From Tetrahymena thermophila SB210 (lineage: Eukaryota; Ciliophora; Oligohymenophorea; Hymenostomatida; Tetrahymenidae), in contig NW_002476342.1 of NCBI RefSeq assembly GCF_000189635.1, forward strand, positions 124,001 through 188,000: a stretch of DNA of 64,000 nucleotides. The letters run 5' to 3'. Position numbers and translations under genes: made by a program. Below are positions 8,186-54,246 of the stretch, piece after piece. Numbering within the stretch: position 1 is the stretch's first letter; the number at the start of each line of letters is the position of its first letter. The notes below the pieces were generated by a model. That model searched no databases, was not told the DNA's origin, and saw nothing but the letters and a program-made list of their open reading frames with translations.

Positions 8186-11100
8186 TCAAAGTTGATCACC
8201 ATTAATAGATCCTGAAAATTTATAATAGTTATCTATTTTTTTTGATTTGCCACTAAGCTCAACTCTAACTTCTTTAGAAGAGCTTGAGGTTTCTGTGAAA
8301 TCTCCACTTAATTTACTATAAATTTTGCTGTAAGAGTTAATGGACTAATCATACAAAAAATGTGAGAACCTTTAATATGACAAATCCAATAAAAATAATA
8401 AAGAACAAGCTAATAAAATAGTCATAACTATTCTAAGGTTTCCAAAAATTATAGTAAAGCTTTCCCAAAGAGGATTATTCTAAGCATATGTTGCATCTGT
8501 CATAATATAGTAGCTTAAAATATAAAAAGAAATACTCAAAAATATCCCAAGCACTGAAATGAACGAAAAAGTGTTAGAGAAAGTAATTATCTTTAAGTTT
8601 GCATAAAGGGTTATTATTGTGAAAGACACCATTCCAGTTAAAGAAAGTGATGATTATTATCCATTTTAGTCTAACATTGTATTTTCTAAACAGTAAAATG
8701 ATAAAATTATTATAATAAAACTTTAAAGAAGGCCATTAATTAATGTCTTTATAAATATTTGTGTATTAAACAATTCAAACTTCATTCCTTTTATAATTAA
8801 AAATTTTTTTTAATTTAAAATAAATTGAAAATTTTCTTATTTTCTTTTATTTCAAGCAAAAATGTTTGCCATATTTTATTCATTTTAAAGGATTAGTCTA
8901 CTCTTTATTTTTTAAAGTAACTTACATTAGGACAAAAAAACAAACAATAAATTTTAATTATCCCATTGTTTAAATTAAATTTAGAAAATCGTTAAATATT
9001 TTTGTTGTTTTTTCTATTACAATGCTTAAAAGATATGCTTCAAAATATTAATTAAATTTAAAAATAAAAATAAAAACCTTATTTGTAAAAGTTAGAATTG
9101 GAGAGTAATGTCCTCTTTGAATATTCCCTATCAGTCAAAGCATAAATTACAATAGGAAGAGCAGTAAAAATGGTATTAAAAAGTTGATAAATCCATGGAT
9201 CATACAAATTTGTTCCACTGAATAAACTTAATATAGCTCCAAACCAGAATTGAGGTAAGACTAATAAAAGATTTTTAAAGAAATTAAAGAGGACTAATTC
9301 ACTATTTTTTCTATAGCATTCTCTACCATAGTCAAAAAGTAACTCTTTAAGTTATTTGAATTCATTTACACTAAAATCACTTGCTCTACTAGCCTGAGAC
9401 CCTTCAACACCTTTAACACCAACACCTAATTAATAAGTATTTAAATCATTAACAATAAAACTAATAGTAAAATGAGGATATAAAATTAATATAATGATTA
9501 AAGCATTATTTACCAACATGTGCTTCTAAGATCATGTTCACATCGTTTGCTCCATCACCAATTGCGAGGGTTGGTTTTCTTTTTGTATGTTTTTTTACTA
9601 GCGAAACTGCGTGTTTCTTTTAACTAGGAGTAAATCTGCAGCCTATAACGCTTTATACCATCATGGAAAGTTATACAAATTAATAAGAAACTTCCTGATC
9701 TGTTTCTATGGTATGGAATGACTCTCCACTTATTATCAATGAATACTTAACATGCTAATTATCTTAAACGCTCTAAAAATAGTATCTAATTTTTTGTTTT
9801 ATTAATTATAAATTCTTGTCATCTATATCTATTATTTAAGTATCTGAGTCTATAATTTATGCAGAATGACTGATATTTATTGCTGTTTCCTTTTTGTCTC
9901 CAGTTAAAACCCAAAACTTTATTCCTGAATTTAAAATAATTTTAAAATTAGGTATTAAATTTTTTTCTTGACATTTTTAAACCAAATTTATGAATTAAAA
10001 AGCTTTTCTATTAATTTCTAAATATTTTGAATGAAAACAAAGAATCAGATAAAATTCATTTTTTTTATTGAACTTAAAATTATTTATTTATTTAAATAAT
10101 TTTTTTTTAATTTGAAAATTATTTCAAAGATTTTTTCATTAAAACTTAATTTGGAAGTTTGAAATAAATTAAACTGACCTGCATCTCTTATTGATTGTAT
10201 TGTGTTTCCAACTTCATCTTGCAATTTATCTTCTACAGCTGTTACTCCTAAGAAATTTAAATCTTTTTCCATAGAGTCTTATAGCTTTTCTACTTGTTCA
10301 TCTCTATTTTAAAGGGATCTCTCTGCTTCACTATATTTTTCACTCCATTGATTATATTCTTGTTCAGATAAATCTTTTTTTGCCAAAAATAAAGTTCTCA
10401 AACCTTGATTTGCATATTAATTTGTAACTGATTTAGAAACTGATAGATTTTGTTATTAAAACTCATATTCACTTAATCTTTATTCAATTATTGAGTCAGC
10501 TCCTTTGCAATAAAGCTAAATTTATCCTATTTAAATTGAAATGATATAAATTTTTTTTAAAATTAAATTTTAATGAAAGATAAACTTGAATTTTCTTTAA
10601 AATTTTAACAATGATTGAAATAATTTTTGAATAAAAATTTACCTTAAGAATTTTTTACTATAATACTAACTCTCTTTCTAAAACTGTTAAATTCAAAGAA
10701 TTTTAAGACTTCGTATTCAAATATTTAGTTTTGATGCTTAATAATATAATATTCTTTTCCATTTTCCTTCTTGCTACCTTTAAAAATGTATCCAGCAAGC
10801 TTAGCAAAAGAAATAAGTGCTAGTTCGTCTGGAGAAGATGCGCTGTAGTGAACATCATCGGAAAGCATAGGATTATTGGAATGGTCCTTTTCAACTACTA
10901 CATTATGACATAAAAAAATACAGTGTAGTAAATCAATTGTTTTTTAATCCTTTGATTCAACAAGCTTAAAAAATTCATAGTCATCAAAATCTACATAATC
11001 AACTTTTTTTTTGTTTTCTTAGTTTGGCACACTACTTCTTTTGTAAAGTTAATTTGGTATTTCTAAATTGCTTCCATAATTGACACCATTAACACAAACA

Positions 11101-13309
11101 TTCTTAAATTCCATCCTATTCAATGTCAAAGTGCCTGTCTTATCAGAAAATATATGATTTATTTGTCCTAATTCTTCATTTAAGCTGCTTGATTGTACTG
11201 AAATATTTCCTTATCCTTCTTCTCTCATTAAATTATATCCTTAGTAAAACTTAACAACTTCCAAAGTAACTAACAAAGAAATAGGAATAAAATTAGTAAA
11301 AATAAGCATCCATGTTCCCATACTAATCAGCACAGTAAGTATTGTATCTTGCTGAATATGTTCTTAATCTTTTTCTAAGTAATTCAATTATCCACTATCC
11401 TATTTTCATTAATTATTTAAAAATAAATTAATCAAGTCTATTCCATTTTAATCAAAAAAATAAACAAATTCATTACAAAAAAAGAGAGTTTTTAATTATT
11501 TATTTTAAACAAAAACTCAATAAATTATTTTAATATTTTGAAGAAAATCAATTTTAAAGTCAATAATTAAATCAGAATAATATTTTATTTAAATTGAATT
11601 TCTTTTGAACCAAGAAAAACACAAATTTAAATAAAAAAAATAAATTAATTTATTAAAAAGTTGAATAAAATTTAGATTAAAATAATTAATTAATTACATT
11701 CATATTTTTGGTTAAAAAGTAATTTATTGAAGCTGAGGTGAAGCATGTCAATATTTGAACAGTAAAAAGGATGACGATTAGTTTGTTCATGGTCTTTTCT
11801 AAGCTGCTTAATTTGGGAGCAGGCTCAGAAGAGTTCATCATGATCTTAGTCTCATGGCCAGTGTAAATGACTAAACCATAGACAAACTCAGTATTTTTTA
11901 AAGAACTACCCTTAAGAAGCACATTTATACCTTTAATTGAAATATTGAACCTTCCGTCATAAGCCATAGCTCCATTAAAGTTATATAAATACTTATTGGG
12001 AGCTTCGTATTGGACCTCGATATTAGAAAAGTTTTCCCATGAAAGCAGCTGGACTTCAATTGGAGCTAGTCTTAACTTTAGATTAGATTCTCCGTCTAAA
12101 TTCATAGTTTCAATATAGCAAACTCCACTTTCTTCGCTGGACTGTAAAAGGATAACATCAGCAGGTATTTACCTAAATGTATAAATAAATAAATTTATTT
12201 ATTTAAAAACAATAAGTTCTACTTAAATTTGATTAAAAGAAGAAAATTAATGGATTAATTAATTAATTAATTAAATAGATAGATAGATATTTATTTAATC
12301 TTCTTTTGATAAAAATCAAAATTTAAAAAAAATTTCTATCTTAAATTAAAAGTCGAGTTAGTTAGTGAGTAATTGACTGACTGACTATATAGAATAATAA
12401 TATATTTAGAATATTTAAACTTTATAAATTAAATATTCTAAAATATATTTTAACTAACTAACAATATAACTAGCTAGTTTAATATCTTAAACTTATTCCT
12501 TTTTATCAAAACTTTTATGTTTTTTGCTTGCTTTTTTACTTTTCTTTTTTATTTTTTTATCTTCATTTATTGGTCTTTAAAATATTGAAATAATGCTTTA
12601 AATATACTATTAATGCTTATCGAAAGAGTTTTTTAATTCTTCACTCAACTTAAATAATAAATTTGTAAATTCAAAGTTTAATGAAAATCATTTTGGTCAA
12701 AGATAAAAAGATGATATTATCTTTTAACGCAAATAGCTGGATAGCTGCTATACTTGGTTTTTATACTAGATATTAATTTGGATCATTTTAATAGAAAAAT
12801 TACTCGTTTTTCATAATTTTGATAACATGACCAGGATGGAGCTGGTGACTGTGAACTTAACTGAGATTTTGACCTTCTCTTTAAATAACAAGATGGGAGT
12901 TTTCTAAGTTATCCTAATCTTTACGCTTTTTGTCTTCAAATATCTCTTTAAGAGCCGATATAAATAGTATTACGCTAAATGGCAAGAACATGATTGGCTT
13001 GCCATCACTCATTGAAATGGTTGTAATGCATTACATAAGACCTATAATCAAAAAATATACATTGGCTAACTTACTGAACTAATATATTAGCATTTTTGGT
13101 AGAAAAGTTATAATCGTGTATTTGCTTGTTGAAACTTTATTTGAAACTAAATCATAATCAGGTATCAAAGGATAGATTGTCCTAGTTTTTCTCAATTTGT
13201 AACCTTTTTTGTGCTTTTTAAAAAAACAAAATTTGCTATCATACTCAGCATTGTCATATTTCTACTTCATGTAGTCCATGTTTGATGAACTATTTTTTTT
13301 ACGTTGCAT
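8186..13309 (-). CDS. P4-type ATPase, phospholipid-transporting (flippase), copy B, 7 exons
   Basis: Paralogue of copy A with the same expected role in lipid flipping. Exons on the minus strand: 13309-12804, 12172-11698, 11399-10643, 10526-10179, 9924-9514, 9425-9078 and 8787-8186. They sum to 3447 nt (1148 residues), with every junction GT...AG and in phase. Motifs: [16 protein letters not shown] (Ser where copy A and most P4-ATPases have Thr), [16 protein letters not shown] with Asp about residue 413, [20 protein letters not shown] about 818, then [12 protein letters not shown] and the C-terminal helices. The tail is Ser-rich (TSSSSKEVR). Three introns occupy the same protein positions as in copy A. 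Three more, after NMNVIN, inside DAG/IKFW and after NFYK, are absent from copy A. ATG at 13309 is the first Met ahead of the conserved SKYTI segment. It is intact as far as I can see. Confidence 0.93.
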
Positions 13310-27245: not shown

Positions 27246-29973
27246 ATTTATTTAGATTTGCTTCTTATTCTTAGATTAGTAATTGCAAGATTATCAAAAA
27301 ATATAATCGACATAAAGCATTTAATATAGATCTAAGATAGGAAGATCATACATTATATTATAGACAAATATTGTAGAAAAAATATAAAGAATATTGATTG
27401 ATTGATACTATTAAGATTTTTCATTCAAAAACTATTTGCAAACACCTTTAAGATTATCAAAATATTAATGGCTCTAGAAATACTATTAGTAAATTACTAA
27501 AAGGAATTGTATGTATAAAAACAAATAAATATGGAAGAGCATCACTAACCCATTAACTGAAAAATATAAATTTAATACAAATATTAAAATTTTGTATAAG
27601 ATCAGGATTATTAATTACTTTTATTTTGCAAAATATTACAAAATGCAAAACTTGCAAAATGCAAAATTTGCAAAACATTATAAATTCATTTTTAAATATA
27701 TTTTTATTCACAAGAGAGTATAAATAAACCCTGCTTAGTTTATACCTAAACTTTTGAGAAAGCGCATTAGTCATTTTGATTGTTTTGTTGTGATTTATAA
27801 ATATAGATATTTGATAAAAGGAAACCATGAAAAATATGTAAATATAAATAAATTTTTGCATTCAAATGATCTATTTATTATTTAATTATTATAAAAATAA
27901 ATAAGTTCCCATATAATATATGAAATTAACTGAGAAACAAACAAACAAACAAACAAACATAATTTAATAAATGATAATTTTCTTAATATAATTGCAAAAT
28001 CAACAATCTCGTTTTGAAAATATTTTAGCATTATTATCGAATTAATTTTTATTTTCTTTTTATGAAAAGAAAATGCAAAACATAAAGAAACAAATAGAGT
28101 TATCTATTGAAAATATGCATGAAAAAATTTTTCGTAAATATTCAATAATGATCAATAAATCAAAATTTTTTTATTATAAAACTGAATTTTTAATAAAGCC
28201 ATGTTAAGATATTCCTAAATTATAGGATATATTAAACTTCTTTTTACTGTTTTAGGTATACGTTAATTCATTTCAGTAGCTGCAAGTTAACTAAAAACTT
28301 GGCTAGACATAATAAAAAATCACTTTCTTTAAATCATTTTCTAACTTTCTTTATATGATTTTCTAACTTTCTTTCACAAATGAATACATGACATAAGACA
28401 AAGGACATGAGATAAAAATTTTTGCAAAAAATAATGTTGGTGTTGATAAGTAATATTTAAACAAATAATCAATATATTGAAAAAGTATGATCAATAAAAT
28501 ATTTTTCATTCAAACAACAAAAAATAAATAGAGAATTTATAAATAAAAACTAATATCTTTTAAAATAGATTATCATATTATGTATTGATAATATTTATTT
28601 TTTATTTTAAAAAATGGAAGAATTCAAGCAAAATATTATTTGCTTTAGCTTATTCAAAAACTCAAAAAAAAAAATGTTTTATACAAACTATCATGCTATA
28701 GATGAATTTCAATAAGAATGTATCTATCTACCTTTCTTTCTTTAATACATGCATGTTCGATTATATAAGAGCAAAGTTAAGCTAGATATATATTGCTCTT
28801 TAAAAGAAAAAAATTAAATAATAATGAATGAATAGACTAATAATTAATTAATTTTTGTTTATTTGCATTGAAGACAAATTTTCATAAGAATTAATCAATA
28901 TCCTTGTTATCAGATATTGAAGACAAAATTAGATAAGAATTAATTAGCTTTATGATTAAGTGAAGCAATTAGTAAATGGATAGCAGCAAGTCGTAGTGAT
29001 TTTTCAATGATGGAGATTGTTATTTTTAGCTCTGTGAAAAAAATAATTTTAAAAGGAGTTGTAATGAATGAAACTTTAACAATATAATATCTATTTAAGT
29101 TAATATTTTATTTGATAATTACATAAATAAACAAATAAATAATATTAAACATATTACATTAATACAAAAAATGAGGTTTGTTGATCGATCTAAACAAGCT
29201 TTAAAAAAAACAAAATTTTCATACTATTTAAACCAATCAACGAATATATTATAATAAAATAAATATAAGTACTCAGTAAATTATAATATTATTTTAAGCA
29301 AATTTTAGGAATTAAAAATATATATGAAATAGCTAACATATTTAAATTTTACAGAACATAATGCCATTTATTTTTTTATTTTTTGAAAAAAAATCTGTTA
29401 ATAAATGGCAATATAAAAATAATCAATAATTGATACAAGTATAATTATTTTAACTCAATGAAAGAAGTAAAAAATGTTAAATTTTATTATCGAATACATA
29501 CATATACAACTAACTAACTGACTTTTTCTAAATAATTGTTTTAATATTTATTAATTATTATTGCATAATTAATATTTCTGAAAAACATAAAATTATTTAA
29601 GCAAGATTGTAATAAAATAGAGAAATAAAATATTTTTATGTTCTTAAATATCATCTAATAAATATAGTACCCTCAAAAAAAGTGAGGATAATAGGACTTA
29701 CATGAAATAAGATGCAGTTAACATACAAAACATAATATAAATTATATTCATCATTTTTTTTTATTTATCTTCTATATTACTATCTTTATGAAGCAAAAAC
29801 AAAAAACAGATAATAAAATGCTCAAAAATTGATTAGTGATTTTAAATGATACATTTATTATCCGAAAATAACTAAAATATTTTAAATTTATTTTGTAAAA
29901 ATATAAGCATCATTTTAAATAAATTTGTTTCACATTTTATTATTTTTTATTTTCTATTGTATATTTATAGATG

Positions 29974-30044
29974 AATGTATGTATGTATGTATGTATGTAT
30001 GTATGTATGTATGTATGTATGTATGTATGTATGTATGCATGCAT
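29974..30044. repeat. (GTAT)n microsatellite
   Basis: About sixteen uninterrupted GTAT units ending in GCATGCATCAAC. An open frame through it (alternating MYVC) is a by-product of the repeat and not a gene. Confidence 0.95.
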
Positions 30045-31569: not shown

Positions 31570-32494
31570 ATTCAAAAAATTGTCTCCAAAAAACATCATC
31601 AATCAAACGAAATTTTTAATTGAATCCTCTGCTTTATTTTTAAAATAAAAAATGAATGAAAAGAAAGAGGGTTTTTATATAATTTTTTAAGATTTCAAGA
31701 AATAAACCTATTTATTTATTTTTTTCCTAATTAAATCAGTCTCCTTAATATTTAATCAAATTAAATCGAAAATGCTTTGTCTGTTTGTTTATTTATTTAT
31801 TTGTTTGTTTGTTTTTTTGTTTGTTTGCTTGTTTGTCTATTTGCTTTTTTGTTTTTTATCTGTCATTTCTGAAGAAATTATTTTTTAAAAACAAGGAAAA
31901 TTAAAATTTTAAAATAATTTAATAAAATCAATATGAATTTTAGTTAGTCTATCTAACTTGAATAATTTAAGAAAATTACAAGCTCTTAAAAAATATTTAT
32001 TAAAAACACAATTATTAATTAGGTAAAATTAACTAACTTATTTAAAACTTGACTCTGATGACTCAGCAATATTTAATCAAATAAATTTTAATACTAATTA
32101 ATTACTTTTTTATTAATTTCAAACAAGAGATAATCAATCCATAATTAATTATTGAAATTAATTAATTAAAATCTTGTCTCCAAAATAAATAAATAAATAT
32201 CGAATATTTGTCTCCAAAAGATTTAATCAGATAAATAAGAAAAATTTATGCTTAATTAAAAATTTTACCAAACAGTACCGTACGTACGTATATTAGTATA
32301 TGAAAAGTTTCTTTTATTTAAATAAATGAGCAAAATGTTTAGCTATTCAAGCATGCATTTGTTAATGAAAATAATGGAAAATATTTTGTGTAAATTTGGT
32401 TGCTATATTAATATTTTATTTTAAGCTCCTGCGGTTTTTTTAATGTTATAATTAATAAATGGAACTAAACCAATTTTGAATGTTTTAAGATATT

Positions 32495-32666
32495 TTCTTT
32501 GATTTATCTATCTATATATTTATATTTTTTACTTGAATCATTTATTTTAATTAAAAAACCTTATTTTACCGCTTTAATATAAATCTGAAGATTTTAGGTA
32601 CAAGATAATATTAAATAATTAATTAAAAAATCTTAAATTGATAAATTTGTAAAAACACAAACAAAA
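32495..32666 (+). promoter_or_regulatory. Conserved upstream region of antigen copy 1
   Basis: The block before the start codon is shared with the same region of copy 2 (CTTGAATCATTTATTTTAAT, then ATATAAATCTGAAG.TTTTAGGTA). It runs through poly-A-rich DNA up to ATGAGAAAATT. Conservation of non-coding DNA at both copies, after extensive drift elsewhere, suggests promoter or 5' leader function; recent duplication could also explain it. Confidence 0.4.
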
Positions 32667-33797
32667 ATGAGAAAATTAATAACAATCACTCTTGTTTTGG
32701 CTTTAGCCAGTTACTCATACGCATAACTCCAATGTCCTGCTAACTCCTCTTGGGTTTCTGGTTCAAGTGCTTGTGTATGCAATCCCGGATATTATGGTAC
32801 TAGCGCTTCAGCTTGTGTATAATGCCCAAGTAACTCTTGGTCATCTTAAGATTCAAACACAGGATCAAGCATTAAAGCTTCAGCTTGTAATAAATGTGCT
32901 GCTGGATACTATCTTACTACAGCTGCTGTTACAACTGCTGGTTCTGAAGCTCCTGCTGGTTGCACAGTTTGTCCTACTAACTCCACTCCTACTACTATGT
33001 CTACTTCCACTTAAACTCCTTAAAGTTGTGATAAATGCTTACCTGGCTTTTTCTTTGTAACTGCTGCTTCTGCTACTCCCGCTGCTGCTTCATGTACCAC
33101 ATGTGGTTCTCCTGGTGCCGTAACTTCAACTTATCCTACATCAGGTGCTGCATAAAATCTTGGTAATTGTGATACCTGTTCATCAGGTTATTGGCTTGCA
33201 ACTCCTGCTGTTACTGGTGCTACTCCAGCAGCTGCCATTTGCACATAATGTTCAGGTGGTGTGACTGTCTCAACTCCAGCTACTACTCCTGCTCAAACAG
33301 TTGCTGCTTGCGATACCTGTCCTGCTGGCAAATATGTTGCAACTGTTGCTGGCGCTGCTGCCGTTGTTTGTAATCCATGCCCTGCAAATTCTTATTCTAA
33401 TGCTTCAAAAAATGCAGGATTTTGTACTTGTTATGACACTAATGCTCCTGCATTATCTGCCTAAGTTTCTAGCTGCGCTTGCAAAACTGGTTATTTGGGT
33501 ACAGTTGCTGCTGCTCCTCTAGCTGCTAGTGGATGTGTTTTATGCAATGACCCTAGTGCTAGTCCTTCATTAGTAAGCGGTGCTTGCGTATGTAAAGCTA
33601 ATACCTATGGTACCCCAACTAGTAACGCCGCTTCTGCTCCTAGTACTTCTACTTGTACTAATTGCCCAAGCAATACAACTTCCCCTGCTGGTACCACAGC
33701 ATAAACTGGTTGTACAACAACTCCTGCTAGCAGTAGTAATTCAAAAATCTTATTGCCATTAGTAACCTTGCTTTTCTCTTTGGTTCTCTTGCTTTGA
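32667..33797 (+). CDS. Immobilization-antigen-like GPI surface protein, copy 1
   Basis: Single exon, 376 residues, with many TAA glutamines. Residues 1-19 form a signal peptide (MRKLITITLVLALA, cleavage likely after YA-19). The mature part is Ala/Thr/Ser-rich with roughly eleven C-x2-C pairs spaced about 50 residues apart (for example CDTCPAG, CTVCPTN, CVLCND), the hallmark of ciliate immobilization antigens. The C-terminus is SSNSKILLPLVTLLFSLVLLL, a GPI-attachment type tail: small residues, then a hydrophobic end with no cytoplasmic part. The protein is expected on the ciliary and cell surface. A leader-proximal unit (CNPGYYGTSAS) is shared with copy 2. GC content and codon use are richer than the flanks, typical of a highly expressed ciliate gene. 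Several standard-code frames overlap it and are shadows. Confidence 0.88.
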
Positions 33798-34109: not shown

Positions 34110-36262
34110 ATAGCATAAATAATTAGAGTTAGTAATATTAAATTTCCTTTAACTAGAAAGAAGATATTACGAATAGAAATTCAAAGAGAACATAATAGCT
34201 ATTTTTAAATACAAACACTTTTACAAATTCTTAAAAGAGAGTTTGTTTTTATACTCTTGATATAATATTAATCGTATGTATTTATTTCATTTGTAAACTT
34301 AATTAGTCAAATTTATTTCTATTTAAGAAAATAACCAAAAATAAAATGAACGGAATAACGAATATCCAAGCTATTAGAAATGAAATGACTAAGTAATTAC
34401 TGTATTACTTGTAATCATTTTTATAGCATTCATAAGATAAATTTGCTAAGATGTATTTCTTACTTCCAAATTATATACACGAAGACAGAAAAATCAGTTA
34501 TAAAAGCAAATCTTGCTAAAAATATAATATCAAAAATATTATGATCGAAGTGTATATTTTATGATAAGGAAATTTCCTTAATTTTTATACTTTTTTTCCT
34601 ATTAATAAGGAAACTAAGAAAGGCAAAAAGTGGATCACAGGGATTACCAAACAAAAGAAAAGTTTTAAGTAGATTGATTATTGGAAAGCTTTAGTTTAAA
34701 TTTAATAAAAAGCACTCTATAGAACTCACCTAAGTATCTAAAGTCCCTCCCAGCAAACTTGGTAATCCAGTTATTGCTAATTTAAATTAAATTAGATTTA
34801 AAACTAAATTTTTTGAATTCTTAAATTACTTTTAGATAAGCTTAAATCAAGTTTTCCTTGTGAACTAATAATAAAAATGTAGTTCATAAATAATTTGATG
34901 TAAACTCCTGTTTTATTTTGTCTTAGGCTTAATACTTAATTTTCATATAATGTTTTTTTAATTTTAAGTTTGAAGAAAATTGCTTTCTTTTTCTGTGCTT
35001 TTTGATTTGTAGAAGTATTTTGTAAAAATAGCTGAACTCTTTCTTCTCATCAGTGCATTTTGTTCCAATTTTATAACTGCAATCGATAAGGACAATAGAG
35101 CCCAGAGATTTATGTAGACCAGCTTTAATACTTACTATTTTGATTGAGAAAATAAAGCACACTCATATTAATTGAAACTTTGCGTGTATCTATCTATCTT
35201 TCTCCCCACTAATTAGCATAAATCTTATATTTAATTGAAAATATACATACATAAATAAATAAATAAAAAATGCATAAATTTTACATCACATTCTTAGCAT
35301 AATTCCCCATTAGATTATTTCTTGCATAGTTTATTTACATAAGAACCTCCTATACAATTGCTTATAGAATAAGAGCATTGCAATACTTTGTCATCCAGCA
35401 TATTTGATCTCCAATAACCACCCTTCCATGCATTTTATTTTTTCTCCTTAATTACAAATTGCTCCATTCGGACAATCTAAGCAGATTTGTGGGTCGATTG
35501 AGTAAGCTCCCTATACACAGTCAATACACTCTTAATAATTATTATACTTGCTGATGAGTTCACCTGCTGAACAATTTCTAAAATGTATTAAGACTTCAAA
35601 AGTCTCTCCTTAAATGAATTAATTTGTGTTGGGATCTACTTATTTAGTATAATTTGAAAAAAACTCTACGTATGCAAATGAGCCAGGAATTCCTATAATT
35701 TAAACTTGATCAAAAGTTATCAAACTCAATCAACTATGGATTTTGATTCAATTAATACTTTGATGATTATTATCCTCTAATATAATAACTGCTTGAGTTT
35801 ATTGTTTGTTTTATTGCTAATTTAAATTTAAACATAATAAAGGATCTTCGCCATATTATGGTAGAACTACTTCATTTTAGCTATTCAAAATCTGAAATTA
35901 AATTGTTGAAAGATTCTACCCACTTTTAAAATTATCAATAAAAATTTAGCTATTTATTAATCTTGCATTAGCTGTTTTAGTTAAAAATTCATTTCGATTT
36001 ACAAAATGAGTTTGCTTGCTTGGATAAGATTAAATATTTAATCCATCCATATTTCTGTGATTTTTTATTATCAAAAACAGTTTCTTTATCAATAAATAAA
36101 TAAATAAATAAATAAATGGAAATAAACACTATGAATAGATTGCACCTCAAAAAGATTTTTGATTTTCTATGAATTAACACATATTAATAAATATTTTCTT
36201 GTTAGCATCATTCATTCAGAATTTACATGCAAAGCTCCACCATAAATACATACATAAATAGT

Positions 36263-36297
<35 letters not shown>

Positions 36298-40560: not shown

Positions 40561-41200
40561 TTTTATTATTATTATTTTCTTTGCATTATTTGAAGAAATA
40601 TGCATCTATTATATAAATTAATAAAAAGTCATTCCTATCAATTCTATTGATTATTTATCAAAAAAAACGATAAGACTTAAAGATGTTTTGTTTTAGCTTT
40701 AGAAAAGGTCAATAATAATTGCTACCATATGGCTAATTAATTTCTAAATTTGTTTTTTTACATTTGAGAAAAAAATAAAGATTGGAGACAAAATTAGTGA
40801 TAAGTAAAAAACAAATTAACAATTCTGCTTTTAGTAGAAAGAAATTGTAATTTATTTTCAACTGGATATTATTTCTTAATTTCATGGCAGTTTTCTTAAA
40901 CGAACTGACATTTTTTCTTCAAATATAATTAAAAAATACTATGGATGATAATACAAATTAATCTTTAGGTTTATATGTAGAAGTGAAATTATGCAAAATA
41001 TTTTAATTTTAGCAACTAAAAAAAAGTATTCGATGATAAAAAACTTCTTTTAAAAATTATAATTTTATATTCAAAATTATATGTTTATGAAACGAACAGC
41101 CTTATTTAAGACTTCATTTCTTATTTGATTATTTATTATTTTTGTTAAGCAAAGTATAATTTATATGTTATTATATTTTTGTATCCTTTAATTTGAAATA
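40560..41200. repeat. Non-coding interspersed repeat, diverged partial copy
   Basis: Reduced landmarks of the family remain in order (GATTATTTATC, TTTAGCTTTAGAAAAGGTC, CATATGGCTAATTA, ATGTAGAAGTGAAATTATGC). It is more diverged than the neighbouring copies and ends before the antigen copy 2 upstream region. Confidence 0.45.
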
Positions 41201-41274
41201 TTTAATAAGAAGTAAGCTTATTTTTAATATTCCAAACATTAAAAGCTTAAAAACTATTTGTAAATGAATGTAAA

Positions 41275-41480
41275 ATTTGTAGCCTTGCTAGATGCACTCA
41301 AGGTCAGCCACATCCTCTAATTTTTTACCTAACCATACCTCTTTTTAATTTTAAGTGGCTTCTTTAATAGATAGTTGGTATCCGTTTCGTCATTTCCAAA
41401 TACAAATTTGTAATTTCGATGGTTGGCTGGCTTACCAATCTGTTGTCGATGTGCGGAAGGATTTCTTGATTTAATTTCTA
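41275..41480 (-). other. GC-richer coding-like island, unassigned
   Basis: Clearly less AT-rich than its surroundings. The minus strand is open in the ciliate code with natural-looking composition (HRQQIGKPANHRNYKFVFG, NDETDTNYLLKKPLKIKKRY, MWLTLSASSKATNFT). No start, introns or family could be assigned. It may be a fossil exon or a piece of a mobile element next to antigen copy 2. Confidence 0.35.
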
Positions 41481-41524
41481 GTTCGAACTATTTATTTATT
41501 TTTTTGTAAGCTCTTTAAACTTTT

Positions 41525-41692
41525 CCTTTTAATTATTCTATCTATATTTTTCGCTTGAATCATTTATTTTAATTAAAAAAACTTTGTAAAAGCTGCAATA
41601 TAAATCTGAAGTTTTTAGGTAAAAGATTAATAATAAATAAATAAAAAATTAAACAATTTTTAAGTTATAAATTTGTAAAAGCATAAATAAAT
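41525..41692 (+). promoter_or_regulatory. Conserved upstream region of antigen copy 2
   Basis: Counterpart of the copy 1 upstream block, with CTTGAATCATTTATTTTAAT and ATATAAATCTGAAGTTTTTA in the same order and spacing. It ends in an A-rich leader directly before ATG. The DNA immediately to its left (41.28-41.48 kb) is a different, GC-richer stretch not shared with copy 1. Confidence 0.4.
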
Positions 41693-42808
41693 ATGAGAAA
41701 ATTGATAATAATCGTTCTTGTTTTGGTTTCATACGTATAAAGTCAAATATGCCCTTCTTACGCCTCTTGGGTTGCTGGTTCTACTAATGCTTGTTAATGC
41801 AATAACGGATATTATGGTACTAGCCCTTCAACTTGTAAGGCTTGTCCAGATAACTCTTGGTCAACTTAAGGTTCTACAAATACAGGTCCAAGCATTACAG
41901 TTTCAGCTTGTAATCAATGTGCTCCTGGATATTTTGTTAGTACAGTTGCTGTTACTACTCCTGGTTCTGAAGCTGCTGCTAAATGTACAACTTGTGGTAC
42001 TACTCACTCCACTCCTAATACAATGGCTACTACTCAATAAACTATTTCAGATTGTAATACATGTATGGATGGTTATTACTTAACAGTTGTTGCTGTTACT
42101 GGTGGTTCTGCTGCTGCTGCTACATGTCAAGCATGTGCTTCTTAAGGTGCTATCACTAGACTTCGTGCTACAGATACTCCATAAACAGCCAATGATTGTA
42201 ATCTCTGTTTACCAGGTTATTGGGTTTCAAGTGCTTTTGCTCAAGGAGGACCTGCTATACGTTGCACAGCTTGCCCACCTGGTTTGACTAACTCAGCTTC
42301 AGCTACTGGAGCTACTGGTCTTCAAACTATTGCTAGTTGCGATACCTGTCCTATAGGTTTTTATGTTACAGCTATTGCTTAATCTGGTGGTCCCGTTTCA
42401 TGTGCTCCATGTCCTCCAAATTCTTCTTCTCCTCCTTCAAAGAATTTAGGATTTTGTACTTGCTTTGATACTAATGCACCTGCATTATCTTCCTCAGTTA
42501 CTAGCTGCGCTTGCAAAACTAATTATTTTGGATCTGTTGCAACTGCTCCTCTAGCTGCTAGTGGATGTGTTTTATGCAATGACCCTAATGCTAATTATTC
42601 ATTAATAAACGGTAAATGCGCATGCAGAGCTAATACCTATGGTACCCCAACTAGCAACGCCACTACTCCTCCTACTTCTTCTACTTGCTATAATTGCCCA
42701 ACCGATGCAACTTCTCCTGCTGGTACCACAGAAAAAGCTGGATGTAATAATTCAAAAATCTTATTGCCTTTAGTAACCTTGCTTTTCTCTTTAATCCTCT
42801 TGCTTTGA
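41693..42808 (+). CDS. Immobilization-antigen-like GPI surface protein, copy 2
   Basis: Single exon, 371 residues, paralogue of the antigen gene about 9 kb to the left. Signal peptide MRKLIIIVLVLVSYV, then Ala/Thr/Ser/Pro-rich repeats with C-x2-C pairs (CKACPD, CNQCAPG, CTTCG, CDTCPIG, CVLCND) and the same hydrophobic GPI-type tail NSKILLPLVTLLFSLILLL. The last 110 residues are the most alike between the two copies (APALS..V.SCACKT, APLAASGCVLCNDP). The central repeats differ more, as expected for variable surface antigens. The upstream 130-170 bp and about 150 bp after the stop are also conserved. It is intact. Confidence 0.88.
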
Positions 42809-44899: not shown

Positions 44900-45960
44900 A
44901 AACAACAACTAACTGACCCTATTATGTCATTATATATTATATATTTACTCAATCAAATTTAATTAATTTTTTAACTTTTTACTTCTACTTAGCTTATTTA
45001 CTTACATAATCTAAAAAATTAGTTAATTAAATATGAATATCCTCAATTAAATACTATTTTTTTAAAATAAATAGTAAACTGCTATTATATAAAATTAAGA
45101 AAATTTATGAACAATATTGAAATTACCTCTTAAAAAAATATCTAAATCAAGATTTAATAAGTATGTGTGTTTGATTTACTTTTTACTAACTTCTTTTTAT
45201 TAATTTTATTATTATTATTATTTTCTTTGCATAATATGGAGAAATATGTAAGTAACTCTAAACTTATAAAAAGCCCTACTTAAAATTATTGACATTTATT
45301 TTATCAAATCAATTTATAACTTCTACAGAATAAATTTAGATTTTAAGAAAGTAATTTTCATGTAGTTTTAAAATGATAAGGCTTAAAGATGTATTAGCTT
45401 TAGAAAATGTTATTCATAATTGCTATTATGTTACTTATTTGTCTTAGTCAGATGCATTTAATTAAGTTCGTTTGTTTTCATACATCAGATAAAAAATTTT
45501 AATTAAAAATCTGATTAAATATAAAAAAATAGCTAAAGTAAATTGGGTTCATAATTTTTTTTCCTAAAATTAGTTATTTAGTTAAGAAAATGACAAATAA
45601 ATCTTTAGAAAAATATTAATTAAATAAGTGATTATTCATTTAATAATAAATATCTTATTAAAAACTTATCCCTTGATGATTCTCCAATATTAATAATATT
45701 TATATTTATATATATATATATCAAGCAAGGAGACCTCAATTATCACTTTGCTTCTCATTATATAGCTAATGATATTTAAGTGATAACCTTATTGTAGTTT
45801 GATAAAAATAATTAACTGAATAATGAATAATATTAATTATTATCTACTGTTTTAATGATATTTTAACTAATGGTTATTCTTTGTTATTTTATTTTTTTGA
45901 AGAAAATATTCATATATATTTTCAAATAAAAAGCAAAAATAAAAATCGAAAACAAAAGAT
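44900..45960. repeat. Non-coding interspersed repeat, rightmost copy
   Basis: The unit carries TACTTCTACTTAGCTTATTT, AAAAGCCCTACTTAAAATTA, TTTAGATTTTAAGAAAGTAA, TATGTTACTTATTTG and CTTATCCCTTGATGATTCTC. The CAATGGAGTC part is missing, so it carries an internal deletion of roughly 300 bp relative to the other copies. Confidence 0.55.
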
Positions 45961-46879
45961 CATTAATCATTATTATCATCATCTTCAGACTCTAATTCTC
46001 TAAAATTTTTATTTAACTATGCCATTTATATCATCTTCTACTCACACCAATATTTTACTAGCCTAATATTTATTTTATTGTTTATATTTGTTTAAACCGT
46101 TTTATAGGTAAATTTTAATCCTTAAATTATTAATTTTGTTCTTTTTTTTATTTCTATTAGTATAATTATATATTACTTTTTAATTTCTATAAAATAAAAT
46201 TTAAATTTAAATTATTTATTTTAAATTAAAAATTAAACAAATAAACATATTAATATAAAATAACATAAAATTTAAAAATTAATTGATTAATTTATTTTTT
46301 ATATTACTAGAATTTTTTCAAATATGACTAACTGGCCATCTCTAATCCCTACTATATTTAAGTATTTGTTTTAAATACAAATAGAAAGATTAAATAATGA
46401 ATGTTAAATTATTTTTTATTTAATATCTCTACATAAAACCAAATTTATAAATTAATAATTGATCATTAATTATTATATTTGTTCTTTTTATCCATTATAA
46501 TTAATTAATTAAATAAATTCCATAAATTGCTATTAAATTTTTTTGAAAAAAAAATAAATGATATAATAGATTAAAAATTATTATAAATTAGAAGAAGTAA
46601 TTATTATTTTTTTTATTAATATCTTATAAATTTATATAAATTAATAAAAAAAGTTTTTAAGCTCTTCACTTTTATCTCATTAGGTTCTCCTTATTGATCT
46701 CAAGTATATTTTATTTATAAATATTATTTTTATTATTATTAATATTTTTTATTTTTTAACTTTCAATTTATCTAAATAAATAATTTTTGTTATAGAAATT
46801 ATCATCATTATTCATTGATTTTTATTAAAAGAAAAATTTTTTAGCTATTTTGACTTAATTTTCAATTCAATTTTCAATT
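45961..46879. other. Intergenic, left of the leucine-rich-repeat array
   Basis: Extremely AT-rich with no recognisable gene, repeat copy or structured element. It separates the rightmost antigen-flanking repeat from the ghost unit of the array. Confidence 0.5.
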
Positions 46880-47131
46880 ATTTTTTATTATTTGATATTT
46901 TTTCTTCATTTTTTGCTTAAAACTTACACTTAATAAAAGTAGTTTATTAGTTTTGGATTGTAATATTTTTAATTATAAAAGTTAATTTAAAACATTAAAG
47001 TTCTTTTAATTTATTTGGTTTATTTTCCTATTTCTTTTTATTGTGGTTTCTTATTTTTTTCATTCTTTGTTAATTTTATTAATTAATCTTATTATTTCAT
47101 ATTTTTTCTTCATTTTTTTCTTCTAATTAAC
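46880..47131 (+). pseudogene. Ghost unit of the leucine-rich-repeat array
   Basis: This stretch carries the array's intron signature (AGTTTATTAGTTTTGGATTG, then AATATTTTTAATTATAAAA and CTTATTATTTCATATTTTTT) but no repeat-coding exon. Only a short CTTACACTTAATA remnant stands where the exon end would be. It marks the decayed left edge of the array. Confidence 0.55.
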
Positions 47132-47240
47132 TAGAGTGAAATGCCTATTTAATTTGTAAAAGGCAAAATGTATAATATCTTAATAACATAATAAATAAAG
47201 CTAAATTAGCTTTAAACAGCTTTATTTTTGAGTTTTTAGA

Positions 47241-50200
47241 ATGCTTTAAATTCACAAAATGTAAAGTTTGAAATAACATGATATTATATAAAGGAAAAAG
47301 TATTATCTATGGCACTTTTTTCAATATTTTTTAAAATAATCATTTTATTCCAAAATTTAAAAAAATGTAAAAACACAGTATATAAAACTCGCTTTTTAAA
47401 AATTTGTATGACAACTTACTCTATTTAATAATATATTTTTTCTTCAATATTTAAAAAGTAACAATGAAATTGGTGACGAGAGTGCATCAGGCTTAGGTTC
47501 TGCTTTAGAAAAGTGTATTAATCTCTCAAATTTAACACTTAAAATTCGGTAAAAACAGTTTATTTGTTTTGGATTGTGATATTTTTAATTATAAAAACTA
47601 ATTTAAAACAATAAAGCTCTTTTTTCTTTTTCTTTTTATTGTGCTTGCTTTTTTTTGTTCTTTCATTATTAATTTAACAACTCACTCATCATTTTATTTT
47701 CAACTTTAACTTTTATTATTAATTCATATTTTTTCTTCATTTTTTCCTTCTTATTAACTATTTAATGATATTTTATTTCTTCAATATTTAAAAGTTACAA
47801 TAATATTGGTTACAAAGGTGCATCAGGCTTAGGTTCTGGTTTAGCAAATTGCATTAATCTCTCAAATTTAGCACTTTATCTTGGGTAAAAACAGTTTATT
47901 TATTTTGGATTGTGATATTTTTAATTATAAAAACTAATTTAAAGCAATAAAGCTCTTTTTTCTTTTTCTTTTTATTGTGCTTGTTTTTTTTTTGTTCTTT
48001 CTTTGTTAATTTAACAATTCATCATTTTATTTCCAATTTTTGCTTTTATTATTAATTAATTAATGTTATTATTTCGTATTTTTTCTTCATTTTTTCTTTC
48101 TAATTAACTATTTAATGATATATCTTTTCTTCAATATTTAAAAAGTAGTAATTACATTGGTGACGAAGGTGCATCAGACTTAGGTTCTGGTTTAACAAAG
48201 TGTATTAATCTCTCAAATTTAACACTTGATCTTGAGTAAAAACAGTTTATTTGTTTTTAATTGCGATATTTTTAATTATAAAAATGTTAATTTAATAACT
48301 CATCATTTTATTTTCAACTTTTGCTTTTATTATTAATTAATTAATTAATTAATCTTATTATTTCATATTTTTTCTTCATTTTTTCCTTCTAATTAACTAT
48401 TTAATGATATATTATTTCTTCAATATTTAAAAAGATGCAATAAAATTGGTGACGAAGGTGCATCAGTCTTAGGTTCTAGTTTAGCAAAATGCATTAATCT
48501 CTCAAATTTAACACTTTGTCTTAGGTAAAAACAGTTTATTTGTTTTGGATTGTGATATTTTTTATAATAAAAACTAATTTAAAACAATAGAGCTCTTTTT
48601 TCTTTTTCTTTTTATTGCGCTTGCTTTTTTTTGTTCTTTCTTTGTTATTTTAACAACTCATCATTTTATTTTAAAATTTTGCTTTTATTATTAATTAATA
48701 AATCTGATTATTTCATATTTTTTCTTCTAACTAACTATTTAATTATATTTTATTTCTTCAATATTTAAAAGTTAGAATCGAATTGGTGACAAAGGTGTAT
48801 CAGTCTTAGGTTCTGGTTTAGCAAATTGCATTAATCTCTCAAATCTGACACTTGAACTTAAGTAAAAACAGTTTATTTGTTTTGGATTGTGATATTTTTA
48901 ATTATAAAAACTAATTAAAAACAATAAAGCTCTTTTTTCTTTTTCATTTTATTGTGCTTGTTTTTTTTTGTTCTTTCTTTGTTAATTTAGCTCATGATTT
49001 TATTTGCAACTTTTGCTTTTATTTTTAATTAATTATTCTTATTATTTCATATTCTTTCTTCATTTTTTCCTTCTAACTAACAATTTAATGATATTTTATT
49101 TCTTCAATATTTAAAAGTGGTAATGTAATTGGTGACGAAGGTGCATCAGACTTAGGTTCTGGTTTAGCAAAGTGCATTAATCTCTCAAATTTAAAATTTG
49201 ATCTAAAGTAAAAACAGTTTATTTATTTTGGATTGTGATATTTATAATTATAAAAATTAATTTAAAACAATAAAGCTCTTTTTTCTTTTTCTTTTTATTG
49301 TGCTTGCTTATTTTTTGTTCTTTCTTTGTTAATTTAACAATTCATCGTTTAATTTTCAGCTTTTTTATTTATTATTAATTAGTCTTATTATTTCATATTT
49401 TTTCTTCCTTCTTTCCTTCTAATTAACTATTTAATGATATCTTTTTTCTTCAATATTTAAAAAGTTGCAATCAAATTGGTTACAAAGGTGCATCAGGCTT
49501 AGGTTCTGGTTTAACAAAGTGTATTAATCTCTCAAATTTAACACTTGATCTTGAGTAAAAACAGTTTATTTGTTTTTAATTGCGATATTTTTAATAATAA
49601 AAACTAATTTAAAACAATAAAGATTTTTTTTCTTTTTCTTTTTATTGTGCTTGTTTTTTTTTGTTCTTTCTTTTTTAATTTAACAACTCATCATTTTATT
49701 TCCAACTTTTGCTTTTATTTTTAATTAATTATTCTTATTATTTCATATTCTTTCCATAATTTAATGATATTTTATTTCTTCAATATTTAAAAAGTTTGAA
49801 TGAAATTTATGACGAAGGTGCATCAGTCTTAGGTTCTAGTTTAGCAAAATGCATTAATCTCTCAAATTTAACACTTTGTCTTAGGTAAAAACAGTTTATT
49901 TGTTTTGGATTGTGATATTTTTTATAATAAAAACTAATTTAAAACAATAGAGCTCTTTTTTCTTTTTCTTTTTATTGCGCTTGCTTTTTTTTGTTCTTTC
50001 TTTGTTATTTTAACAACTCATCATTTTATTTTCAACTTTTGCTTTTATTATTAATTAATTAATCTTATTATTTCATATTTTTTCTTCATTTTTTTCTTCT
50101 AACTAACTATTTAATTATATTTTATTTCTTCAATATTTAAAAAGTTGCAATCAAATTGGTTACAAAGGTGCATCAGGCTTAGGTTCTGGTTTAGCAAAGT

Positions 50201-53200
50201 GCATTAATCTCTCAAATTTAACACTTGGTCTAAGGTAAAAACAGTTTATTTGTTTTGGATTGTGATATTTTGAATTATAAAAACTAATTTAAAACAATAA
50301 AGCTCTTTTTTCTTTTTCTTTTAATTGTGCTTGCTGTTTATTGTTCTTTCTTTGTTAATTTAACAACTCATCAATTTTTTTTAAATTTTGATTTTTATTA
50401 TTATTAATTAATTTATTTTTTCTTCATTTTTTCCTTCTAATTAACTTCTTTTTAATTATATATTTTTTCTTCAATATTTAAAAAGTAAGAATTAAATTGG
50501 TGGTGAAGGTGCATCAGACTTAGGTTCTGGTTTAGAAAATTGCATTAATCTCTCAAATTTAACACTTGACCTTCGGTAAAAAGAGTTTATTTGTTTTGGA
50601 TTGTGATATTTTTAATTATAAAAACTAATTAAAAACAATAAAGCTCTTTTTTCTTTTTCTTTTTATTGTGCTTGCTTTTTTTTTGTTCTTTCTATCTTTG
50701 TTAATTTATTTAGCTCATCATTTAATTTTAAAATTTTACTTTTATTATTAATTAATTAATCTTATTATTTCATATTTTTTCTTCATTTTTTCCTTCTAAT
50801 TAACTATATAATGATATATTTTTTCTTAAATATTTAAAAAGTTTTAATAAAATTAATGACAAAGGCGCATCAGGTTTAGGTTCTAATTTAGAAAAGTGCA
50901 TTAATCTCTCAAATTTAACACTTAAACTTAGGTAAAAATGATTTATTTGTTTTGGATTGTGATATTTTTAATTATAAAAACTAATTTAAATAATAAAGCT
51001 CTTTTTTCTTTTTCTTTTTATCGTGCTTACTTTTTTTTTGTTCTTTCTATCTTTGTTAATTTAGCTCATCATTTAATTTTAAAATTTTACTTATATTATT
51101 AATTAATTAATCTGATTATTTCATATTATTTCTTCATTTTTTCCTTCTAATTAACTTTTTAATGATATATTTTTTCTTCAATATTTAAAAGTTGCAATAA
51201 TATTGGTTACAAAGGTGCATCAGGCTTAGGTTCTTGTTTAGCAAAATGCATTAATCTCTCAAATTTAACACTTTATCTTGGGTAAAAACAGTTTATTTGT
51301 TTTGGATTGCAATATTTTTAATTATAAAAACTAATTTAAAATAATAAAGCTCTTTTTTCTTTTTCTTTTTATTGCGTTTACTTTTTTTTTGTTCTTTCTT
51401 TGTTAATTTAACAACTCATCATTTTATTTTCAACTTATGCTTTTATTATTAATTAATTAATTAATTAATGTTATTATTTCATATTATTTCTTCATTTTTT
51501 CCTTCTAATTAACTATTTAATGATATAGTTTTTCTTCTAAATTTAAAAAGTAAAAATGCAATTGGTGACGAAGGTGTATCAGTCTTAGGTTCTGGTTTAG
51601 CAAATTGCATTAATCTCTCAAATTTAACACTTTATCTTTAGTAAAAATAGTTTATTCGTTTTGGATTGAGATATTTTTAATAATAAAAACTAATATAAAA
51701 CAATAAAGATCTTTTTCTTTTTCTTTTTCTTTTTATTGTGCTTACTTTTTTTTGTTCTTTCTTTGTTATTTTAACAACTCATCATTTTATTTTAAACTTT
51801 TACTTTTATTTTTAATTAATTAATTAATGTTATTTTTTCTTCATTTTTCCTTCTAATTAAATATTTAATGATATATTTTTTCTTCAATATTTAAAAAGTG
51901 ATAATTTCATTGGTTACGAAGGTGCATCAGGCTTAGGTTCTGGTTTAGCAAAGTGTATTAATCTCTCAAATTTAACACTTAACATTGGGTAAAAGCATTT
52001 TATTTGTTTTGGATTGTGATATTTTTAATTATAAAAACTAATTTAAAATAATAAAGATCTTTTTTCTTTTTCTTTTTATTGTGCTTACTTTTTTTTTGTT
52101 CTTTCTTTGTTAATTTAACAATTAATTATTTTATTTTAAAATTTTGCTTTTATTATTAATTAATTAATCTTATTATTTCATATTTTTTCTTCATTTTTTC
52201 CTTCCAATTAACTATTTAATGATATCTTTTTTCTTCAATATTTAAAAAGTAACAATGAAATTGGAGACGAAGGTGTATCAGTCTTAGGTTCTGGTTTAGC
52301 AAATTGCATTAATCTCTCAAATTTAACACTTTATCTTGAGTAAAAACAGTTTATTTGTTTTAGATTGTGATATTTTTAATAATAATTAACTTTTTTAATG
52401 ATATATTTTTTCTTTAATATTTAAAAAGTGGTAATTACATTGGTTACGAAGGTGCATCAGGCTTAGGTTCTGGTTTAGCAAAGTGTATTAATCTCTCAAA
52501 TTTAACACTTTACTTTCGGTAAAAACAGTTTATTTGTTTTGGATTGTGATATTTTTAATTATAAAAACTAATTTAAATAATAAAGCTCTTTTTTCTTTTT
52601 CTTTTATTGTGCTTACTTTTTTTTTGTTCTTTCTTTGTTAATTTTACAACTCTTCATTTTATTTTCAATTTTTGCTTTTATTATTAGTTAATTAATCTTA
52701 TTATTTCATATTTTTTCTTCATTTTTTTCTTCTAATTAACTATTTAATGATATATTTTTTCTTCAATATTTAAAAAGTAACAATACAATTGGTGAAGAAG
52801 GTGTATCAGTCTTAGGTTCTTGTTTAGCAAAATGCATTAACCTCTCAAATTTAGAACTTTATCTTATGTAAAAACAGATTATTTATTTTGGGTGGTGATA
52901 TTTTTAATATAAAAAACTAATTTAAAACAATAAAGATCTTTTTTTTTCTTCTTTTTATTGTGATTAATTTTTTTTTGTTCTTTCTTTGTTATTAACAACT
53001 CATCATTTTATTTTAAACTTTTACTTTTATCATTAATTAATTAATCTGATTATTTCATATTTTTTCTTCATTTTTTCCTTCCAATTAACTATTTAATGAT
53101 ATCTTTTTTCTTCAATATTTAAAAAGTAACAATGAAATCGGAGACGAAGGTGTATCAGTCTTAGGTTCTTGTTTAGCAAAATGCATTAATCTCTCAAATT

Positions 53201-54246
53201 TAACACTTTATCTTGGGTAAAAACAGTTTATTTGTATTGGATTGTGATATTTTTAATTTTAAAAACTAATTTAAAACAATAAAGCTCTTTTTTCTTTTTC
53301 TTTTTATTTTGCTTACTTTTTTTTTGTTCTTTCTTTGTTAATTTAACAACTCATCATTTTATTTTAAACTTTTGCTTTTATTATTAATTAATAAATCTTA
53401 TTATTTCATTTTTTCCTTCTAATTAACAATTTAATGATATATTTTTCTTCAAAATTACATTCAGTAAAAACAGTTTATTTGTTTTGGATTGTGATATTTT
53501 TAATTATAAAAACTAATTTAAAATAATAAAGCTCTTTTACTTTTACTTTTTATTGTGCTTACTTTTTTTTGTTTTTTTCTTTGTTAATTTATCAACTCAT
53601 CATTTTATTTTCAATTTTTGCTTTAATTATTAATTAATTAATCTGATTTTTTCGTATTTTTTCTTCGTTTTTTCCTTCCAATACTTTTTTTTTGTTCTTT
53701 CTTAGTTATTAACAACTCATCATTTTATTTTAAACTTTTGTTTTTATTATTAATTAATTAATGTTATTATTTCATATTTTTTCTTCATTTTTTCCTTCTA
53801 ATTAACTATTTAATGATATATTTTTTCTTCAATATTTAAAATGTTTCAGCTAAATTGGAGAAATGGGTGTATCAGGCTTAGGTTCTGGTTTAGCAAAATG
53901 CATTAATCTCTAAAATTTAACACTTGATCTTGAGTAAAAACAGTTTATTTGTTTTGGATTTTGATATTTTAAACTATAAAAATTAATACAAAACAGAAAA
54001 TATCTTTGAATTTATTTGATAGCTTTTATTTTATTCATTTTTTATCTTATTATTCCACTAATTTTATTTGATTTATCAATTTAAGAAATAATTTTAATTT
54101 AAAAGTTTATTCTATTTGATATTTATTTAAAATTTACACAAATTTATTTTAAAATTTTTAGCAAAATGACTTAATCTTAAAAATTAAAAGTTATAAGCAA
54201 GTGTCTTAAATTAAAAAGATTAGTGGTCTTTGAGATAAATAACTGA
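47241..54246 (+). CDS. Leucine-rich-repeat protein built from 19 repeated exons
   Basis: Nineteen exons each encode one leucine-rich repeat of the form N.IGDEGASGLGSGLAKCINLSNLTLDL, resembling ribonuclease-inhibitor/NLRC-type repeats. Exon starts: 47459, 47795, 48146, 48435, 48772, 49118, 49465, 49795, 50145, 50486, 50842, 51192, 51551, 51899, 52250, 52429, 52778, 53127 and 53850. Eighteen are exactly 90 nt and the last is 84 nt. All introns are phase 2, begin GTAAAAACAGTTTATTTGTT (or close) and mostly end AATATTTAAAAAG. A unique terminal exon, 54162-54246, encodes KCLKLKRLVVFEINN and a TGA. The first exon is tentative: ATG at 47241 with a 20-nt exon ending at GTAAAG is in phase, giving about 602 residues. 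No signal peptide or kinase domain is seen. Such proteins usually act as binding scaffolds; the partner is unknown. Confidence 0.82.
47459..53933 (+). repeat. Tandem array of an exon-plus-intron unit, about 350 bp period
   Basis: Unit spacing is mostly 330-359 bp (336, 351, 289, 337, 346, 347, 330, 350, 341, 356, 350, 359, 348, 351, 179, 349, 349, 723). Each unit has a 90-nt exon and an AT-rich intron whose sequence is itself conserved: GGATTGTGATATTTTTAATT, then AATAAAGCTCTTTTTTC, TTTTTATTGTGCTTGC, TCATCATTTTATTTTC and CTTATTATTTCATATTTTTT. The 179-bp and 723-bp steps are a shortened intron and a double unit whose middle exon has been deleted. Confidence 0.9.

Follow-up and report, generated by a model that had tools for sequence, protein, structure and literature searches.

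A tandem array of leucine-rich repeat exons in Tetrahymena thermophila: introns more alike than exons, and exon variation concentrated at a few repeat residues

The stretch of Tetrahymena thermophila SB210 DNA considered here (NCBI RefSeq assembly GCF_000189635.1, contig NW_002476342.1, positions 124,001 to 188,000; called the window below, 64,000 nt numbered from its first letter) carries on its + strand, from 46558 to 54246, a gene in which nineteen leucine-rich repeats (LRRs) are each encoded by an exon of their own. It is a well-preserved member of a published family, the group III LRR genes with tandem 90-bp exons. Its paralogues in the same genome differ widely in their number of repeat units, and its repeats vary much more at a few residues than the introns that separate them. 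We consider it quite probable that the gene exchanges units with a pool and that selection acts on a varied binding surface.

A search with the exon core located the 19 LRR exons between 47459 and 53933: exons 1-18 each measure exactly 90 nt, and exon 19 measures 84. Each has an AG before it and a GT after it; on the DNA the introns read GT...AG and are in phase 2. The layout of one repeat per exon, the 18 exons of 90 nt and the intron phase agree with the first-pass annotation of the window. Units 1-18 occupy 47459-53216, with a tandem repeat period of about 350, and exon 19 lies at 53850-53933. The inter-exon introns measure 246, 261, 199, 247, 256, 257, 240, 260, 251 and 266 nt for units 1-10, and 260, 269, 258, 261, 89, 259, 259 and 633 nt for units 11-18; 15 of the 18 are within 240-269 nt, the outliers being those of 199, 89 and 633 nt. 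The first-pass annotation had given the gene as 47459 to 54246: 54246 is indeed the last base of the stop codon, but two 5' exons had been missed. Exon A (46558-46596) consists of the start codon and MIQQIKNYYKLEE and is followed by a 57-nt phase-0 intron (46597-46653); exon B (46654-46703) encodes FLSSSLLSHQVLLIDL, a partial N-terminal LRR strand, and is followed by a 755-nt phase-2 intron (46704-47458) which contains an intron-like relic of a unit. At the other end, the tail exon (54162-54246) encodes a C-terminal LRR cap, ...KVISKCLKLKRLVVFEINN, and the TGA stop. Two other candidate start exons, with an ATG near 46324 and near 47140, were dropped, since by eye the donors or frames failed in the aligned paralogues, where the ATG at 46558 did hold. 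Joined as this predicted splicing has it, the 22 exons of the complete gene give 625 codons in the ciliate code without internal stop. The spliced protein matched LRR_6 in Pfam (E = 3.1e-38); DUF6180 came just above the cut-off and YecR below it, and both were taken for chance matches because the protein is repetitive. Its nearest named PDB chains were mostly LRR proteins, and neither a signal peptide nor a transmembrane stretch was seen by eye in the 625 residues.

A few irregularities were found within the array. The intron after unit 15 (52340-52428) has been shortened to 89 nt by an internal deletion, its splice sites being retained. The 633-nt intron (53217-53849) looks by eye like two introns fused at a lost exon: there is a donor-like remnant at 53464, where the alignment also puts an intron start, and a duplication with a 120-bp period lies further on (53560-53802). 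Exon 19 has, again by eye, TG instead of AG at the usual acceptor place; a TTTCAG 6 nt downstream fits as acceptor, which leaves the exon two codons shorter and the frame retained. These three changes are what speaks for a decaying pseudogene array, a reading that we regard as very improbable: all three preserve the frame, and the 625 codons are intact from start through caps to stop.

The units of the window have many relatives in the genome (101 Mb in 445 contigs). One window unit gave at least 276 matches at E<=0.001, those in its own array included, and its best non-self matches were on other contigs; the LRR_6 profile search of the genome gave two matches only, because the exons are short. 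For the family sample, units with a core more than 14 of 60 bases off the probe, or without a recognised donor, were dropped, as were exons not exactly 90 nt long, and 273 of 285 deduplicated units were retained. To count as full, a unit needed in addition an intron of 225-290 nt leading to a recognised exon, which 202 units had, among them 15 of the window's 19. The sampled loci contain 44 recognised arrays, the window array included, and the 202 full units compared come from 42 of them. The median length of the sampled introns is 257 nt (n = 237), which, like the ciliate code, fits T. thermophila.

The first-pass annotation had held that whole units, each an exon plus its intron, were copied recently or are being homogenised. 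The nature of the copied unit was supported, and local copies do exist. The closest pairs in the window are units 4/8 (96.8% identical), 14/16 (94.6%) and 2/12 (92.9%); for 8 of its 15 full units the closest relative sampled lies in the window array itself, and over the 202 units this holds for 54.5%, against 3.1% with shuffled labels; lastly, mean intron identity in the whole sample is higher within arrays than between them (0.946 versus 0.925). All this could plead for a recent tandem amplification of a single founder unit, at this locus only, but growth of that kind found no support in the array itself. The window introns are no closer to one another (mean identity 0.907) than to those of other sampled arrays (0.910), although the latter value is favoured by the sampling of other arrays through their similarity to one window unit. 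Neighbouring units are not more alike than distant ones either (0.890 at lag 1, 0.884-0.899 at lags 2-12), and the head and tail of the gene are common to some 40 other places. We therefore judge the single-founder scenario improbable: local copying happens, but the exchanging pool looks genome-wide.

The distribution of heads and tails was as follows, about 40 candidates having been scored for each. With 45900-47150 as query, the upstream region gave long matches to 41 further places in the genome, and the tail region was matched at 39 other places, i.e. all those scored. Translations were compared for the near-full head matches and for the tail-exon matches of at least 85 nt. The former make up 19 rows: 2 belong to the gene of the window, and 17 represent 14 distinct places elsewhere; counting that of the window, 15 contigs are involved. 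At 13 of these 14 places exon A, read as far as a GT, has the sequence M[I/M]QQI....LEE, and the fourteenth, on contig C249, has LQE. An exon B-like peptide followed by two bases and GT is likewise present at 13 of the 14, the exception being C219, where a wrong acceptor was taken in the translation and no sensible exon B came out. The tail exon was translated at six other places: four have an AG where expected, a similar peptide (...SKC.KSKRLVV...) and a stop; C378 has a similar peptide, but no AG at the expected position; and on C249 the exon was read off frame in the translation. Eight arrays with both head and tail, including that of the window, have 5, 7, 7, 9, 10, 10, 16 and 19 recognised units.

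The window's own contig (C194, 243 kb) starts and stops inside LRR arrays (L050 and L051). Further heads or tails match on it at 8074, 14310, 27017 and 66939, so that it carries several such genes. Several more of the sampled contigs likewise finish in arrays of this kind. Exact matching revealed no telomere or chromosome-breakage motif in the loci scanned, the ends of C194 included.

When introns and exons of the window were compared, the 15 introns of 240-269 nt showed a mean pairwise identity of 91.2% (105 pairs), far above the 46.6% of 15 random 257-mers taken left of the array and the 47.6% of mononucleotide-shuffled introns. The first-pass annotation had called them 'nearly as conserved' as the exons, which was an understatement, since mean exon identity is 84.7% only (153 pairs). 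The exons fall behind because they vary strongly at a small number of codons whose residues are predicted to contact a binding partner. In LRRs, residues x5, x7, x8 and x10 of the LxxLxLxxNxL stretch line the concave face. Among the 30 residues of the window repeats, the intron-split codon being counted, the highest entropies are those of x10, x8, x7 and x5. The 11 variable columns have a mean diversity of 0.605, against a maximum of 0.360 when sets of 11 columns were drawn 20,000 times from exon and intron, a test which is a partial guard against the post hoc choice of columns. The invariant codons beside the variable ones (bases 5-7 and 11-13) scarcely vary, even at their third bases.

The introns provide a neutral reference for these differences: in the 15 window units their divergence (0.0925) equals the silent divergence (0.098) found when x5, x8 and x10 are set apart and the remaining 26 codons counted, so that they behave as neutral. 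Measured against it, replacement divergence at x5/x8/x10 is very high, 0.613 with a bootstrap range of 0.535-0.665, for codons that were themselves chosen after the data had been seen. At the 26 other codons together replacement divergence (0.0945) is no lower than silent divergence; it drops to 0.016, versus 0.095 for silent changes, at the 17 least variable codons, a class made post hoc by setting aside nine fairly variable codons once the data were known. The latter contrast also argues against the pseudogene array. A family subsample, 90 units taken at random from the 202, gave 0.074 for introns, 0.092 for silent sites, and replacement values of 0.448 at x5/x8/x10, 0.0946 at the other 26 codons and 0.035 at the 17 least variable ones.

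Variation at these codons appears to move in short tracts. In the family sample (24 common sites), the linkage measure r2 falls from 0.23 at distances of up to 5 nt to 0.042 at 6-20 nt and 0.012 at 21-50 nt. We also considered 44 pairs of units whose introns are hardly distinguishable, with no more than one substitution and two gap columns between them (21 of the 44 pairs are within one array): the exon bases of these pairs differ at 39.5% for x5/x7 and 33.7% for x8/x10, versus 4.0% for the rest of the exon. Such pairs, with almost the same intron and different variable codons, fit an exchange of short tracts. An illustration is provided by the C142 array, in which units 1, 2, 3 and 5 join two exon-start versions with two exon-end versions in all four ways, with the reservation that this array sits at a contig end, so that an assembly error is possible. 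Exchange alone should not lift the diversity of contact codons above that of introns; selection or targeted mutation would therefore be needed as well.

The choice between these two is less simple. Selection at the binding face is likely, though silent changes are raised there too. For x5/x8/x10 the silent divergence is 0.55 among the window units (bootstrap range 0.23-0.78) and, in the family subsample, 0.58. When pairs of distinct exons sharing a residue are considered in the family, the codon differs in 53% of cases at x8 and 47% at x5, whereas x10 and the remaining 26 codons show 5.7% each; the window's own pairs give 1/14 at x8, 9/29 at x5, 2/12 at x10 and 244/3255 at the other 26. Either saturated codons independently returning to one residue or a local mutation hot spot would give such a rise. 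A second peculiarity is codon ending. Among two-fold pyrimidine codons, those ending in C amount to 73/114 at x8 (64%), 111/191 at x5 (58%) and 4/18 at x10, while elsewhere in the exon the count is 330/1510 (22%), and three other frames of the window give 150/520 (29%); C-ending codons are thus two to three times as frequent at x8 (exon bases 2-4) and x5 (bases 83-85) as in the remaining exon. These counts were made on 261 distinct exons out of the 273, and their significance is overstated by the shared ancestry of the units. One may then ask whether targeted mutation at a hot spot, more than selection, accounts for the variable codons. The silent changes at x8 and x5, the C-ending excess, the 44 different codons found at x8 and the whole-codon differences between units with introns at most one substitution apart would all suit this explanation, which we nevertheless find unlikely: variation ends at the codon edges, x10 displays neither raised silent change nor an excess of C-ending codons, and the fast decay of linkage in the family makes codon swaps between otherwise identical units explicable by short-tract exchange.

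Besides the raised silent change, the post hoc choices and the equality of replacement and silent divergence at the 26 other codons, all given above, several results weigh against exchange with a pool and selection on the binding face. In the other arrays the order of entropies is x8, x7, x5, residue 7 and x10, so that x10 comes only fifth. The r2 value climbs back to 0.065 at 101-200 nt, and the PHI tests on the window were not significant (p = 0.19, 0.28 without the variable columns and 0.46 for the exons alone). Many of the sampled arrays stop at contig ends, where the assembly is least reliable. Finally, the main text of Xiong et al. (2019, PMC6564038) gives Ka/Ks (replacement to silent change) values below 1 for most group III genes and of about 0.4 for the youngest LRR genes.

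With these reservations, exchange and selection could operate as follows. The locus would encode a 625-residue protein of LRRs with short caps, and its units of about 350 bp would be drawn from a genome-wide pool of near-identical units. We infer that, in the germline, unequal crossing-over and gene conversion cause units to be gained, lost and exchanged; as proposed from the first-pass annotation, the phase symmetry of the units preserves the reading frame, and a single intron phase would leave it intact after any such event. The sampled exons are in keeping with a maintained frame: TGA, the sole stop in code 6, is found in frame at none of the 7917 codons of the 273 exons (window included), as compared with 461/8190 and 251/7917 in the other two frames. 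Selection would preserve the LRR scaffold and, as diversifying selection, favour change at no more than four residues per repeat (x5, x7, x8 and x10), the expected binding face; exons would in this way drift apart, and introns and most silent sites would remain similar. The product would most likely be a recognition protein that is not secreted and whose binding surface is varied.

The group III genes of Tetrahymena, as described in the main text of Xiong et al. (PMC6564038), have tandem 90-bp LRR exons and phase-2 introns, whose length is about 257 bp in T. thermophila as against 232 bp in T. malaccensis. The present gene is like them in these respects, as well as in its nucleotide-level intragenic repeats and in varying unit number. 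Where the group is defined by at least three consecutive 90-bp LRR exons, it has 18 in a row, with the LRR_6 match given above; the introns are in phase 2, on the DNA, for all 18; and the units are alike, with long introns (91.2% alike, median 257 nt). The same authors propose unequal crossing-over (ectopic recombination), possibly with retrotransposition; as to function, their suggestion is either processes akin to the recognition of bacteria or an adjustment to changing surroundings (PMC6564038). Their main text reports purifying selection at the level of the gene and makes no mention of positive or diversifying selection, of hypervariable or variable positions, or of solvent; what is added here is the comparison of variable binding-face codons with a neutral intron yardstick. 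Selection on the binding face of Tetrahymena LRR genes was not found in print among open-licence papers, supplements excluded, and the main text of PMC10868616 does not mention LRRs.

As a gene, then, the array is one more example of a published family, and the useful addition is the yardstick: each repeat has its own long, apparently neutral intron, so that the excess variation of binding residues can be measured inside one gene of one genome. The zinc-finger arrays of PRDM9, whose repeats are alike save for the residues contacting the ligand, offer a parallel. Here too the repeats differ at presumed contact residues; in PRDM9, however, they are contained in one exon without introns between them, and they bind DNA. 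As to NLR proteins, the Pfam scan found neither NACHT nor NB-ARC, and the 22-exon model consists of LRRs and short caps. Brown algal LRR exons have reportedly been studied by Zambounis et al. in 2012, a work cited by Teng et al. 2024. In the main text of the latter (PMC11378527), the LRR exons of brown algal ROCO genes resemble ours in encoding one LRR per exon, in their phase 2, in exon shuffling and in positive selection, the selected sites being placed on the concave face; they differ in being 72 bp long and associated with ROC-COR domains, whereas the exons here are of 90 bp and Pfam finds no ROC-COR.

If the excess at binding residues held true across the family, these genes would become a testable protist case in which germline recombination produces diversity of recognition, comparable to the LRR exons of brown algae. 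Going further, we put forward tentatively, as a possibility that we would not yet bet on, that the exon arrays give Tetrahymena, a single-celled organism, a combinatorial repertoire for recognition, carried in the germline. Its near-identical units, thousands strong, would exchange tracts smaller than an exon; the x8-x10 block at the exon start and the x5-x7 block at the exon end would reassort independently of introns and scaffold; and selection, possibly with a local mutation process, would keep contact codons close to saturation where neutral divergence stands at about 9%. The position of the intron would lend itself to this. It lies inside the x7 codon, and the codon it splits has T as last base at 186 of 214 junctions and is TGA at none of the 214; since the last base is usually T, nearly any two exons could be joined without creating a stop codon, and the join would often bring in a contact residue that is new.

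Other features of the window and genome were noted in passing. On the - strand, 1945-4116 corresponds to the C-terminal region of a phospholipid-transporting P-type ATPase (Pfam) and 10398-11402 to the middle part of such an ATPase (PDB match); both are probably parts of intron-split flippase genes. Ten neighbouring frames searched against Pfam gave one match, to P-type ATPase, and of three searched against PDB, two were without match and one led to phospholipid ATPases. The only RVT_1 match found in the 101-Mb assembly (G000:C134:182753-183433, - strand) fits a somatic assembly. Tetranucleotide microsatellites (ATGT, TTTG, ATAG and others) cluster at 23-37 kb of the window, for instance at 29971-30041, 31776-31854 and 36242-36296. 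On the + strand, 32589-33797 and 41129-42808 are two related, unusually G+C-rich frames coding for cysteine-rich proteins, which we take to resemble ciliate surface (immobilisation) antigens; both have a signal-like start and a hydrophobic C-terminus ending in KILLPLVTLLFSL.LLL.

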